Positions 1,161 to 10,289 of a DNA stretch of 64,000 nucleotides are shown piece after piece. Numbering within the stretch: the stretch's first letter is position 1; each line of letters begins with the position of its first letter. The DNA comes from Methanolinea mesophila (GTDB lineage: Archaea; Halobacteriota; Methanomicrobia; Methanomicrobiales; Methanospirillaceae), in the NCBI RefSeq assembly GCF_017873855.1, contig NZ_JAGGKR010000001.1, forward strand, positions 1,116,001 through 1,180,000, written 5' to 3'. The notes under the pieces are model-generated. The model did not search any database and was not told the origin of the DNA. It saw nothing but the letters and a program-made list of their open reading frames with translations. A program made the translations under genes and the position numbers.

Positions 1161-2009
1161 ATGACGGTTAAAGTAGAAGTAATCGAAGGCGGCGTTCCCC
1201 ATACCAAGATCATGATTGGCGGGCTCATCGTCGCGCTGGTGTGCATTTACCTCACCTACGTGAATCAGCTCACCGGGATGCAGGGATTCGCATTCTTCGG
1301 GGGCCTGGGTGCGGTTGCAGCTATCATATGGGGCAGCCACACAATCAAACACCTGTGCAGCTACGGTATCGGTACCGGAGTTCCCTCCGCAGGTATGATG
1401 GCATTCGGGTCTGGGGTTATCGCCATGCTCTTTGCCACCAAGTTCGGAGTGGCCGCTCCCATAGTCGCGATTATTATCGCCGCTATTATCGGTGCGATCC
1501 TCGGTTACCTGGCAAACAACGTGCTCTCGATGCACATTCCGGTAATGATCCAGTCTCTTATCGAGATGGCGATCATCGGGGCGCTGACCCTCATGGGATT
1601 CTCCGCGATGATCTCTGGTTCGTTCACGTTCAATGCGCTGACCTCAGGCACGGTGACCATTCTCGGACTTGCGCTTCCCAGCTACCAGGTCTCGCTCATA
1701 GGTGGAGGAATTATCGCGAGCATCTTCATGCTCGGAGGTATCGCAATCCAGCACCCGTTCAACGCCTGTCTGGGGCCGAACTGGACTCAGGACAGAATGC
1801 TGACGCTCGCTGCGGAATGCGGGTTCCTGTCCATGATCGCCGCGGCAATCATGTCCCTGGCATTGATCGACACTTACGCGGCCCTGATCTCGCTGATCAT
1901 CGCAGTCATCGGGTGGTATTACACCTATGTCAAGTACCTCGCGCTCTCGAAGCGTGACGCGGCAGGCTGGCTCGACTCCAAGCCGATTCCGGAACTGGAG
2001 GGACACTAA
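1161..2009 (+). CDS. mtrC: MtrC, methyl-H4MPT:CoM methyltransferase subunit C
   Basis: A 282-residue integral membrane subunit of Mtr. The protein is almost entirely hydrophobic, with several transmembrane segments and the conserved stretch IQHPFNACLGPNWTQDRML near residues 195-213, followed by a short charged C-terminus. A ribosome-binding sequence (GAGGTG) precedes the ATG at 1161. The TAA stop shares one base with the mtrB ATG, consistent with tight cotranslation. Together with MtrD and MtrE it makes up the membrane module. Confidence 0.94.
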   Translation: MTVKVEVIEGGVPHTKIMIGGLIVALVCIYLTYVNQLTGMQGFAFFGGLGAVAAIIWGSHTIKHLCSYGIGTGVPSAGMMAFGSGVIAMLFATKFGVAAPIVAIIIAAIIGAILGYLANNVLSMHIPVMIQSLIEMAIIGALTLMGFSAMISGSFTFNALTSGTVTILGLALPSYQVSLIGGGIIASIFMLGGIAIQHPFNACLGPNWTQDRMLTLAAECGFLSMIAAAIMSLALIDTYAALISLIIAVIGWYYTYVKYLALSKRDAAGWLDSKPIPELEGH

Positions 2010-2290
2010 TGTTCGTCGAAGCACTTCCCGAATACGGGCTGGTCGTCGACCCGATGGTGGGCATTGTTTCCACCGCGGGAGAGTCGATGGCTCCTGTCCT
2101 TGAGAAAGTGGGCGAACTGGAGGCCATTTCGGGAGACCTGGTGAACATGCTCTCAGGAGAAGGTAATTTCCTGGCATCGTTCCCCGGCAGGGAGAAGTCA
2201 CTCGTAGTCGCGGGTAACATGACCGCATTCTGGTACGGAATTGCAATCGGGCTGCTAATCGCAGGAATATTCGTATTCCATCTGATTTGA
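2009..2290 (+). CDS. mtrB: MtrB, methyl-H4MPT:CoM methyltransferase subunit B
   Basis: A 93-residue small subunit with one C-terminal membrane helix (about residues 71-92) and a soluble N-terminal part ([15 protein letters not shown]). It is known in the family as a partner of MtrA, F and G in a membrane stalk. It lies in the standard position between mtrC and mtrA, shares one base with mtrC, and is followed after ten bases by mtrA with a GGTGAG ribosome-binding site. Confidence 0.93.
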
Positions 2291-2300
2291 GGTGAGAAAA

Positions 2301-3020
2301 ATGGCAGAAAAGAAATCACCGGCAAGCGGATGGCCGATCGTCCAGGGAGACTTCCACTCAGGGGATCCCAACAGCCCGGTCGCAGTCGTGACCATGGGGT
2401 CTCACCTTGACGAGAAAGGCATCTGCGATGCAGGAGCTGCGATCTGCGGTTCCTGTAAGACCGAGAACCTCGGTCTTGAAAAGGTCATCGCCAATATCAT
2501 CTCCAACCCGAACATCCGGTTCATGCTCCTCTGCGGTACCGAGGTGAAAGGTCACCTCTCGGGCCAGACCCTCATTGCACTCCACAAGAGCGGAGTCAAG
2601 GAAGGCCGTGTCGTGGGAGCCGAAGGCGCAATCCCCTTCATCGAGAACCTCAATGCCGACGCGATCAAGCGCTTCCAGGAGCAGATCGAGGTCGTCAACA
2701 TCATGGAATCCGAGGATCTCGGCGCTATCAAGGCCAAGATCGCGGAACTCACCGGAAGAGATCCCGGAGCGTTCCCGGCGGATGCCCTGGTCGTGGAGGT
2801 CAAGGAAGCGGCAGGTGCGGAAGAAGCGACGGGTGAGGTCAGGCCGTTATCCGGCGAACTGGCGTTGGTCCATGCACGGATGAAAGTAATCGAGAAGATG
2901 GTGGTGAATATCGGCTACCGCGACAAGTTTGCGGCAGGCGTATATTCAGGCAAGATCGAAGGGCTCATGATCGGGCTCATCGTCTCGTTTGCCATCATCG
3001 GATTCATACTGATGGGGTGA
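2301..3020 (+). CDS. mtrA: MtrA, corrinoid-binding subunit A (first copy)
   Basis: A 239-residue corrinoid protein carrying the methyl group between MtrH and coenzyme M. Residues 1 to about 175 form the cobalamin-binding domain. His85 in the motif [12 protein letters not shown] corresponds to the conserved lower-axial histidine of MtrA. Residues about 190-239 hold a linker and a C-terminal membrane helix ([10 protein letters not shown]...[12 protein letters not shown]) that resembles MtrF, a relationship known in the family. The start at ATG 2301 follows GGTGAG; the alternative GTG at 2292 is less likely. The first 115 residues are identical to the second MtrA-type gene at 3241. Confidence 0.95.
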
Positions 3021-3027
3021 TCGGATC

Positions 3028-3231
3028 ATGGCAGAAGAAGGATCAAAATCGGCAGGACCTATCAGAATGGTCGCAATTGAGAACATGGTGGAGAATATCC
3101 GCTATAAGGCACAGATATTGGCAAGGACCAACAAGTTCGACTCTGCAATCATGGACTCGGGAATCGTCGGGTTCATCGCAGGGATCGTCGTTGCACTTGT
3201 GCTGATCGGTGTGCCCGCCCTGGTGATGTGA
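3028..3231 (+). CDS. mtrF: MtrF, methyl-H4MPT:CoM methyltransferase subunit F
   Basis: A 67-residue single-helix membrane subunit of Mtr. Residues 14-33 (VAIENMVENIRYKAQILART) and the helix GIVGFIAGIVVALVLIGVP match the MtrF pattern and also resemble the C-terminal domain of the MtrA just upstream. It sits in the standard position after mtrA, 7 bases downstream, and before the second MtrA-type gene. Its role is structural within the MtrABFG stalk. Confidence 0.92.
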   Translation: MAEEGSKSAGPIRMVAIENMVENIRYKAQILARTNKFDSAIMDSGIVGFIAGIVVALVLIGVPALVM

Positions 3232-3240
3232 GGTACCACA

Positions 3241-3978
3241 ATGGCAGAAAAGAAATCACCGGCAAGCGGATGGCCGATCGTCCAGGGAGACTTCCACTCA
3301 GGGGATCCCAACAGCCCGGTCGCAGTCGTGACCATGGGGTCTCACCTTGACGAAAAAGGCATCTGTGACGCGGGAGCTGCGATCTGCGGTTCCTGTAAGA
3401 CTGAGAACCTCGGTCTGGAGAAGGTCATCGCCAATATCATCTCCAACCCGAACATCCGGTTCATGCTCCTTTGCGGTACCGAGGTGAAAGGTCACCTCTC
3501 GGGCCAGACCCTCATCGCACTCCACAAGAGCGGAGTCAAGGAAGGCCGTGTCGTAGGAGCCGAAGGTGCAATCCCCTTCATCGAGAATCTCAGCGGGGAC
3601 GCAATCAAGCGTTTCCAGGAGCAGATCGAGATTGTCAATATCATGGAATCCGAGGATCTCGGCGCAATCAAAGCCAAGATTCATGAACTCCATGAGAAGG
3701 ACCCAGGGGCATTCCCGGCCGACGCCATGGTCGTTGAGGTCAAGGAGGCGGCAGGCGGAGTAGAAGTCGCTGCAGCAGGCGTAAATCCCCAGTTCCTGGA
3801 GATCGAGAAGCGGCTCGACAAGATCGAGAAGCAGCTTGAGTTCGTTGATGCAGAAGTGGCCCAGAGGGTAGGCCGGAAGATCGGAAGAGATATCGGTATA
3901 CTCTACGGGCTCGTCGTAGGACTGATCGTATTCGTCATCCTGCTTGTCCTGCTCCCGAAGTTAAGTACGATTATGTAA
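3241..3978 (+). CDS. MtrA-MtrG fusion: second corrinoid domain joined to subunit G
   Basis: A 245-residue chimera. Residues 1 to about 180 are a second MtrA corrinoid domain, identical to the first copy over residues 1-115 and keeping His85. Residues about 184-245 ([20 protein letters not shown]..., [20 protein letters not shown]) are a complete MtrG with its coiled-coil start and single membrane helix. It occupies the usual mtrG position between mtrF and mtrH, and no free mtrG is seen. Known MtrG proteins are short, about 70-90 residues. The inference is that this organism's complex displays corrinoid domains on both the A and G stalk helices. GAGGT lies upstream of the ATG. Confidence 0.93.
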
Positions 3979-3994: not shown

Positions 3995-5032
3995 ATGTTC
4001 AGGTTTGAAAAAGAACAGCAAGTCTGGGACTTCAATGGCACCATGATTGGTGGCCAGCCGGGTGAGTACCCCACCGTGCTCGGTGCATCTATCTTCTACA
4101 ACAAGCATGAGGTAGTGCTCGACGACCACACCGGCAAGATTGACAAACCAAAGGCAGAGGCACTCTGGAACCGCTGCCAGGAGCTCTCCGACATGACCGG
4201 CATCCCCCATTTCATTCAGATCATCGCTGAATACGGGGTCGCCTTCGAGAGCTACTTCTCCTGGTTTGACAGCATCGACAACAAGACCGCATTCCTCATG
4301 GACTCTTCGGCCCCGGTCGCACTTGCGCACGCGTGCAAGTATGTGACCGAGGTCGGACTGGCGAATCGGGCAATCTACAACTCCATCAACGGGTCAATCC
4401 CGCCGGAGAACATCGAGGCCCTGAAGAACAGCGACGTGGACGCAGCCATTGTGCTGGCGTTCAACCCCGCCGACCCTTCGGTCGTAGGCAGGGAGAAGAC
4501 CCTCGTAGAGGGCGGAGTCGCAGGCCAGACAAAGGGAATGATACAGATTGCCGAGGAGTGTGGGATCAAGCGGCCCATTCTCGACACTGCGGCAACTCCC
4601 CTCGGGCTCGGCTCGGGCGGGTCATACCGTGAGATCCTCGCCTGCAAGGCGATCCACGGGTACCCCACCGGTGGTGCCTACCACAACATGACCGTCTCCT
4701 GGACCTGGCTCAAGCGCTGGAAAGGTTCCAAGAAGAACCCCTCGAAGCTGGCGGAGACCCTGAAAGGTAAGGACCTCTACACCGAGCAGCTCCTGCACCA
4801 CTACCAGGGCGGCATGGACGGTGTCATCCAGGCGGCATGGTCCGCACCCGATATCGGCTGCAACATGATCGCGAGCACCCTCGGTGCCGACCTTATCATG
4901 TACGGTCCTATCGAGAACGTGGAAGCCATGATCACTGCCCAGGCATACACCGACATCGCAGTCCTCGAGGCCACCCGGCAGATGGGAATCGAGTGCAAGG
5001 CTGAGAACCACCCAATATTCAAACTCATCTAA
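3995..5032 (+). CDS. mtrH: MtrH, methyl-H4MPT:CoM methyltransferase subunit H
   Basis: A 345-residue cytoplasmic TIM-barrel methyltransferase that moves the methyl group from methyl-H4MPT to the Co(I) corrinoid of MtrA. The N-terminus (MFRFEKEQQVWDFNG), the segment GGQPGEYPTVLGASIFY and the end KAENHPIFKLI are typical. Length is slightly above the usual 310-330 residues. It is the last gene of the mtr operon, with GGAGGTG upstream of its ATG, and a T-rich stretch follows the stop. Confidence 0.95.
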   Translation: MFRFEKEQQVWDFNGTMIGGQPGEYPTVLGASIFYNKHEVVLDDHTGKIDKPKAEALWNRCQELSDMTGIPHFIQIIAEYGVAFESYFSWFDSIDNKTAFLMDSSAPVALAHACKYVTEVGLANRAIYNSINGSIPPENIEALKNSDVDAAIVLAFNPADPSVVGREKTLVEGGVAGQTKGMIQIAEECGIKRPILDTAATPLGLGSGGSYREILACKAIHGYPTGGAYHNMTVSWTWLKRWKGSKKNPSKLAETLKGKDLYTEQLLHHYQGGMDGVIQAAWSAPDIGCNMIASTLGADLIMYGPIENVEAMITAQAYTDIAVLEATRQMGIECKAENHPIFKLI

Positions 5033-6057: not shown

Positions 6058-6444
6058 TCACGGAATGTCAAGAGGATCGAAGCCCTGCTTGTAGACTTTT
6101 CCGTACACCTTGGAGATCTTCGGATCAAGGGCACAAATAGGACACGTGTAGTCGTCAGGAAGGTTTTCGAAGGGAGTCCCCGGTTTGATACCCCGGTGCG
6201 GCTCCCCTCTTTTCTGATCGTAGACATACCCGCACACGTTGCAGATGTATTTTGTGGGGATCCACTCCTCGAACCCGCCTTTTCCAATCCTCCCTTTTCC
6301 CTCCATCCCGCATACCGGGCACAGATAGGTATCGGGCAGGTCTTCGAACTCCGTCCCGGGGGGTATCCCGTTATGCGGCTCACCCCGGAGAGGGGAATAA
6401 ATGTATCCGCAGATTACGCACTTATAGCGCCTTACGCTGGTCAT
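6058..6444 (-). CDS. Tandem rubredoxin (two rubredoxin domains)
   Basis: A 128-residue protein made of two rubredoxin folds, each binding one Fe through four cysteines. Domain 1 has C9, C12, C42 and C45; domain 2 has C68, C71, C101 and C104. Both keep the typical CxxCGYxY, the GxxPGTxFEDLPD segment and the CPxC knuckle. An acidic tail ([10 protein letters not shown]) follows. Usual rubredoxins have a single domain of about 55 residues. It is an electron carrier, possibly in oxidative-stress reduction. It stands as a single gene, with an ATATCTTTATC promoter-like element near 6480-6490 upstream. Confidence 0.92.
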
Positions 6445-6594: not shown

Positions 6595-7287
6595 ATGGGT
6601 CTTTCAAAAGGGGTCGTACTTTTATCAATCCTGCTGATAGTGGTCACCGGCATTTACCTCGTCGACCTCTTCGGATTTCCCGGATCTCCGGGGAGTGGGG
6701 AGGTTCCGGTGCTTCCCGCGGTAGAAGTCCGGGAGTACATGGGAGAACGTCTCGATTCGATAGGGGCATTTCGTGAAAATTCGATAAAGGGGCCCCAAAA
6801 CGTGAATATATCCGCATACCGGCTGGAGGTAAAAGGTCTTGTCAGCCCCCCGCGTTTATACACATACGACGAGCTTATTACAAGGTTTCCCCACTACAGG
6901 AAAGTAGTGACACTTCATTGTGTAGAAGGATGGGATGTCACCATCCTGTGGGAAGGAATTCTGGTAAAAGATATTCTCGCTGATTCAGGGGCGGATCCTT
7001 CGGCGGCAATGGTTATATTCCGTGCCTATGACGGGTACAGCACCTCCCTCTCCCAGTCATACCTTGATGATCAGAATATCCTGCTCGCGTACAGTATGAA
7101 CAACGTCACGCTCCCGGCCATTCGCGGGTATCCTTTCCAGCTTGTCGCCGAAGATCGCTGGGGATATAAGTGGATAAAATGGGTCACTTCGATGGAAGTG
7201 TCAAACGACCAGAATTTCAGGGGATATTGGGAATCAAGAGGATATTCCAACCTGGGATACCTTAACAGGAGTTTCTTCGGGTTATGA
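6595..7287 (+). CDS. Membrane-anchored molybdopterin oxidoreductase (sulfite-oxidase fold)
   Basis: A 230-residue protein with an N-terminal membrane anchor (about residues 5-25) and a sulfite-oxidase/YedY-type molybdopterin domain (about 70-215). The motif TLHCVEGWDV carries the cysteine expected to coordinate Mo, followed by the family-like segments SLSQSYLDDQNILLAYSMN, RGYPFQLVAEDRWGYKWIKW and GYWESRGYSN. The anchor predicts an extracytoplasmic enzyme. The substrate is unknown; bacterial relatives reduce methionine sulfoxides. The next gene overlaps by 4 bases and encodes a probable membrane electron partner. Confidence 0.85.
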   Translation: MGLSKGVVLLSILLIVVTGIYLVDLFGFPGSPGSGEVPVLPAVEVREYMGERLDSIGAFRENSIKGPQNVNISAYRLEVKGLVSPPRLYTYDELITRFPHYRKVVTLHCVEGWDVTILWEGILVKDILADSGADPSAAMVIFRAYDGYSTSLSQSYLDDQNILLAYSMNNVTLPAIRGYPFQLVAEDRWGYKWIKWVTSMEVSNDQNFRGYWESRGYSNLGYLNRSFFGL

Positions 7288-9866: not shown

Positions 9867-10289
9867 ATGACCATCGAAGACCTTCTGGGATATTTTTTCT
9901 ATGACCGTGAAGTGCTTGACCGCTCGCTGACCCGTCCGGTTGATAAGAGGATCCTCTGTGACCAGCAGGTACCGGGACTCATTGGGAATGCGGTGCTCTC
10001 GGCCGTGCTCCTTGACCTTCTCTACCGCGATGGGATTGATGACGCCGCACGACTGGCCCGGACAAGAGATTCAATCATGAAGAGGGAGATCCTTGCCGCC
10101 GTAGCCGAGCAGCTCTCGATATGGTCGTTCATCCGCGAACGTCCCGACGAGATCGAACCGGCGGGGGAGATTAAGAGCGCGATTCTCGCAGACACCCTGC
10201 TCGCGATCATCGGAGGTGTGTTTATTGACGGGGGCTACGAAGCCGCGGAACAAAGGATAAAACGCTGGTTCTCTGAATACCTTCCCTGA
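9867..10289 (+). CDS. RNase III-fold protein lacking most catalytic acids
   Basis: A 140-residue protein that aligns along its length with the RNase III catalytic domain: LLGYFFYDREVLDRSLT at the start, GLIGNAVLSAVLLDLLY at the signature region and AILADTLLAIIGGVFIDGGY at the second metal-site region. Against E. coli RNase III the residues corresponding to E41, D45 and E117 are G, N and L; only D114 is kept. There is no dsRNA-binding domain. The fold is therefore likely kept without ordinary nuclease activity, perhaps for RNA binding or dimerisation. It lies 50 bases after marC. Confidence 0.75.
   Translation: MTIEDLLGYFFYDREVLDRSLTRPVDKRILCDQQVPGLIGNAVLSAVLLDLLYRDGIDDAARLARTRDSIMKREILAAVAEQLSIWSFIRERPDEIEPAGEIKSAILADTLLAIIGGVFIDGGYEAAEQRIKRWFSEYLP

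Follow-up and report, generated by a model that had tools for sequence, protein, structure and literature searches.

The gene at positions 3241 to 3978 (+ strand) of the window, a 64,000-nucleotide stretch of the Methanolinea mesophila genome, is mtrA-2b, the standard fusion of an MtrA corrinoid domain to the stalk subunit MtrG in Methanomicrobiales, which has been known since 2015. Mtr is the sodium-pumping step common to CO2-reducing methanogens, and the fusion observed here is real, was correctly read from the DNA, is important in function and is already known. Wang et al. (2015, G3, PMC4632066) described mtrA-2b of Methanomicrobiales as an MtrA domain fused to MtrG and encoded between mtrF and mtrH, described mtrA-2a of Methanococcales and Methanocella arvoryzae as an MtrA domain fused to MtrF, and reported long-lasting gene conversion that homogenizes these MtrA domains with mtrA-1, three separate origins for stalk-fused second MtrA domains and, citing Sarmiento 2013, the essentiality of both mtrA paralogues; a 2018 survey (PMC6053082) repeats the mtrA-2a/mtrA-2b account. 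Because the 2015 paper already covers the fusion, its place in the operon and the gene conversion between it and mtrA-1, the novelty implied by a sequence-only reading is unsupported, and its premise that known family data were limited to A-F relationships is wrong. What our analysis adds to PMC4632066 is that the two MtrA domains of Methanospirillum form separate lineages, with purifying selection on the fused domain.

Every feature that defines mtrA-2b is found in the window, i.e., an in-frame MtrA-MtrG domain order with a replaced anchor, flanking mtrF and mtrH genes, mtrA-1 upstream, replacement of the free mtrG and homogenized, near-identical MtrA domains. There is no structural difference from the published form, though the pair of MtrA domains is somewhat more diverged than the order average (91% versus 95% nucleotide identity), mostly after codon 117. 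The fusion resembles mtrA-2a in carrying a second MtrA domain on another single-helix stalk subunit, homogenized with mtrA-1, but differs in its partner (MtrF in mtrA-2a) and in location, as the mtrA-2a gene sits between mtrA-1 and mtrG.

The fusion gene is a single intact open reading frame of 245 amino acids with an ATG start. Its residues 1 to 172 (3241..3756, +) form the second MtrA corrinoid-binding domain, with a Pfam MtrA (PF04208) match over residues 4 to 172 at 283 bits and the cobalt ligand His85, its linked Glu55 and the GAIPFIEN segment, in agreement with the initial claim of a complete cobalamin domain with His85 in the gene at the mtrG position. This domain is followed by an Ala/Gly-rich linker predicted to be disordered (residues 170 to 187, 3748..3801, +; pLDDT < 50) and by the MtrG stalk/transmembrane helix (residues 184 to 245, 3790..3975, +), for which Pfam MtrG (PF04210) covers residues 184 to 236 at 81 bits and a single long helix is predicted from residue 183 to 244. 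The NCBIfam equivalogs TIGR01111 and TIGR01149 both score above their cut-offs. The MtrG part is missing roughly ten positions at the start of the PF04210 model but aligns with M. mazei MtrG from residue 6 of the latter, so that calling it complete was nearly right. In an AlphaFold2 monomer model, which says nothing on the fit of two domains on the stalk, the corrinoid domain matches the solved MtrA structures 5l8x and 5laa (the latter cobalamin-bound) with an rmsd of 1.5 to 1.8 Å and TM (target) of 0.92 to 0.94. We conclude that the encoded protein consists of an intact MtrA domain of the corrinoid type, a flexible linker and an MtrG stalk helix.

Compared to the canonical subunits of M. marburgensis (8Q3V) and M. 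mazei (9QTQ), the two halves of the fusion match MtrA and MtrG, respectively, in sequence (8q3v_G and 9qtq_S for the MtrG half), and the corrinoid half also matches in fold, whereas MtrA and MtrG are separate proteins in these organisms and each protomer has one corrinoid domain. Cytoplasmic MtrA homologues such as that of M. fervidus (5LAA) likewise constitute an extra MtrA corrinoid domain of the same fold and with the His ligand, but unlike the fusion they are soluble proteins that lack an anchor in the complex.

The fusion gene lies in an mtr operon on the + strand in the order mtrC (1161..2009; PF04211), mtrB (2009..2290; PF05440), mtrA-1 (2301..3020), mtrF (3028..3231; PF09472, PRK13275), fusion and mtrH (3995..5032; PF02007). 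As had been pointed out from the sequence, a normal MtrA is encoded two genes upstream of the fusion, with mtrF in between; this MtrA-1 has a C-terminal anchor helix of its own. Across the whole genome (2.66 Mb in 2 contigs, 98.98% complete) we found exactly one MtrG domain and two MtrA domains, all inside the mtr operon, as well as one MtrH, the mtrH product being the sole PF02007 protein; there is no free mtrG outside of the fusion in these two contigs, just as the sequence-only reading had it for the DNA at hand. The closest named loci belong to Methanoregulaceae/Methanomicrobiales with 82% to 88% amino acid identity, which agrees with the order Methanomicrobiales. Elsewhere in the window, we note a protein with a tandem pair of rubredoxin domains (6061-6444, −), a molybdopterin-binding oxidoreductase domain (PF00174) with a hydrophobic N-terminus (6595-7284, +) and a short protein that consists of a ribonuclease-III-like domain alone (9867-10286, +).

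A fusion of this kind could in principle be created by misassembly or a frameshift, not least as the MtrA domains form two 0.5-kb direct repeats (2301..2804 and 3241..3744, both +, 91.7% identical over 504 nt) that break or collapse many draft assemblies. We give this explanation next to no credence, since the same architecture recurs in numerous assemblies made independently, some of them single-contig chromosomes, and in isolates in culture such as Methanocalculus, Methanoculleus, Methanogenium and Methanospirillum stamsii; the order-wide conservation of the fusion rules the artefact out. An MtrG match was found in 161 of 185 genomes of the class, one per genome among the matches listed, and the proposed search for long MtrG proteins was borne out by open frames of at least 200 amino acids in 109 of the 150 matches listed. 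Both mtrA-1 and the fusion are full length at 61 loci that include those of cultured Methanocalculus, Methanoculleus, Methanogenium, Methanomicrobium and Methanospirillum. Among 24 shorter MtrG frames that we inspected, 22 end at a contig edge and the remaining two (genomes G111 and G137) show overlapping pieces of the MtrA domain in different frames; the idea that some relatives have lost the fusion was therefore rejected, as the inspected short frames are truncated at contig edges or, in two genomes, frame-broken. Outside the order, no MtrA-MtrG fusion occurs among the phylum matches listed, which are the stronger ones and are all free MtrG of 73 to 143 amino acids.

Three loci on MAG contigs (L037, L040 and L054) present a different layout, with mtrB followed by a single MtrA-MtrG gene and then mtrH, so that mtrF and one MtrA domain are missing. 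Since no MtrF is found anywhere in these three genomes, their short operons most likely reflect repeat collapse during assembly, though a deletion between the repeats would give an identical picture.

The two MtrA domains of the window bear the marks of gene conversion. Upstream of the ATG, mtrA-1 and the fusion are no more similar than background; similarity reaches 96.6% over codons 1 to 117, declines to 80.4% over codons 118 to 168 and is gone after around codon 180, and the order-wide median identity profile follows the same shape. All eight amino acid differences between the domains lie at or beyond residue 118, away from His85 and Glu55, and the two domains group together as sisters in the tree (FastTree support 0.998). 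Across 54 distinct paralogue pairs, both copies retain the His and Glu ligands without exception, while GAIPF is changed to GAIAF in four. That 41 of these 54 pairs come out as sisters in the nucleotide tree is also what one would expect if duplication and fusion had happened recently and separately in each species rather than once long ago, with conversion keeping the copies similar. We consider such recent origins extremely unlikely, given that the fusion joint and operon position are common to the whole order, that paralogue identity stops inside the MtrA domain and that the split between the Methanospirillum paralogues predates the diversification of the genus.

Homogenization also complicates the reading of the fused domain itself, which might be structural or regulatory and not normally methylated, with conversion from mtrA-1 as the sole reason for its intact look. 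In most lineages the domains are indeed homogenized (within-genome mean of 94.9% nucleotide identity over the 54 pairs), and the intactness of the fused domain there is therefore not independent evidence of function. We nevertheless regard this explanation as unlikely because of Methanospirillum, in which conversion has lapsed. In six Methanospirillum genomes, the mtrA-1 and fusion domains fall into separate groups, and per-species pairing was rejected (delta lnL 209, AU p 1.4e-6; a test that covered the Methanospirillum set), yet the ligands are kept and dN/dS is 0.05 both between mtrA-1 and the fusion domain, at a dS of ca. 1.1, and among the fusion domains. Two Methanomicrobium genomes point the same way, with nucleotide identities of 92% among mtrA-1 domains, 96% among fusion domains and 82% between the two. 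The non-homogenized loci are L067, L069, L070, L071, L072 and L075 from Methanospirillum and relatives as well as L080 and L081 from Methanomicrobium; at these loci, each of the two corrinoid domains belongs to a lineage of its own that is under purifying selection. As the Methanospirillum lineages are separate and still show a dN/dS of around 0.05, it is selection, and not overwriting alone, that keeps the fused domain functional; judged from these sequences, the domain is under strong purifying selection and conversion alone does not explain its upkeep. Wang et al. had only one Methanospirillum genome in their set, in which the split would not have been visible.

Another scenario is that proteolysis or an internal translation start yields an ordinary MtrG and a soluble MtrA domain in the cell instead of the whole fusion. 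The predicted disorder of the linker would suit such cleavage, and some other methanogens do have soluble homologues of MtrA (PMC4915002). This seems quite improbable to us, as MtrA-1, whose linker is comparable, is unsplit in purified Mtr (PMC10998594). An internal translation start was rejected because the linker has no conserved start codon across 54 genes: No in-frame start codon at residues 164 to 201 is common to five or more of them, and the codon for Met163, present in 41 of 54, falls within the corrinoid domain and is also found in mtrA-1 of some genomes. Our literature search for proteomics of the MtrA-MtrG fusion protein found nothing specific, and the literature that we searched contained no structure or kinetics of the MtrA-MtrG form and no biochemistry on its corrinoid loading, stoichiometry or activity.

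In solved Mtr structures, the stalk has the composition (ABFG)3 with the N-termini of MtrA, MtrB, MtrF and MtrG at its cytoplasmic end, and a disordered linker rich in Glu and Gly carries the corrinoid domain of MtrA (PMC10998594). In M. mazei, a beta-sheet is built from the N-termini of MtrB, MtrF and MtrG, its MtrB portion binds an MtrH dimer and there are six MtrH per complex, of which the membrane-proximal ones are thought to serve MtrA and the distal ones are thought unlikely to reach it (PMC12774963). The N-terminus of MtrG is hence cytoplasmic and close to the MtrH-binding segment of MtrB, which would place the fused corrinoid domain on the correct side and near MtrH. We consider it probable that mtrA-2b occupies the stalk place of MtrG and gives each protomer two tethered carriers that both shuttle methyl groups and are kept alike by conversion. 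The fusion protein would be present in three copies per trimer, and each protomer would have one corrinoid domain on MtrA-1 and one on the MtrA-MtrG protein, both carrying methyl from MtrH to coenzyme M at MtrCDE, with recurrent gene conversion keeping them interchangeable in most lineages. As a functional MtrA corrinoid protein, the fused domain would be expected to bind 5-hydroxybenzimidazolyl cobamide, and the MtrG helix would be expected to trimerize in the membrane part of the stalk. The chimera and the putative second corrinoid carrier per protomer, an idea raised by the sequence-only reading, fit everything tested, from the ligands in all 54 pairs to the cytoplasmic N-terminus of MtrG.

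The likeliest gain would be a second methyl carrier per sodium-pump unit, such that an MtrCDE site or MtrH dimer could be kept busy while the other carrier is remethylated; a trimer would then have six carriers for three MtrCDE pumps and six MtrH sites. That each protomer still has only one MtrCDE globe counts against this account, and one corrinoid domain per protomer is enough for the Mtr complexes of M. marburgensis and M. mazei to work, which means that catalysis does not require a second. The second carrier may raise turnover, service the distal MtrH or act as a reserve, and sequence cannot settle which. Its most likely role is that of a second shuttling methyl carrier, and perhaps it serves an otherwise idle second MtrH active site. 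That the fused domain has its own station at this membrane-distal MtrH active site, which is thought hard to reach for MtrA in the canonical complex, is a tentative possibility. If true, the three sodium pumps of an Mtr complex in Methanomicrobiales would be served by six carriers and six MtrH sites, and where conversion has stopped, i.e., in Methanospirillum and Methanomicrobium, specialization of the two carriers may be under way. Methanospirillum offers natural carrier pairs that are no longer homogenized and are useful for asking whether the carriers differ in their job. Culturable species have the MtrA-MtrG form, and an Mtr in which each pump has two tethered corrinoid carriers would reveal how the enzyme is limited by the number of its carriers.
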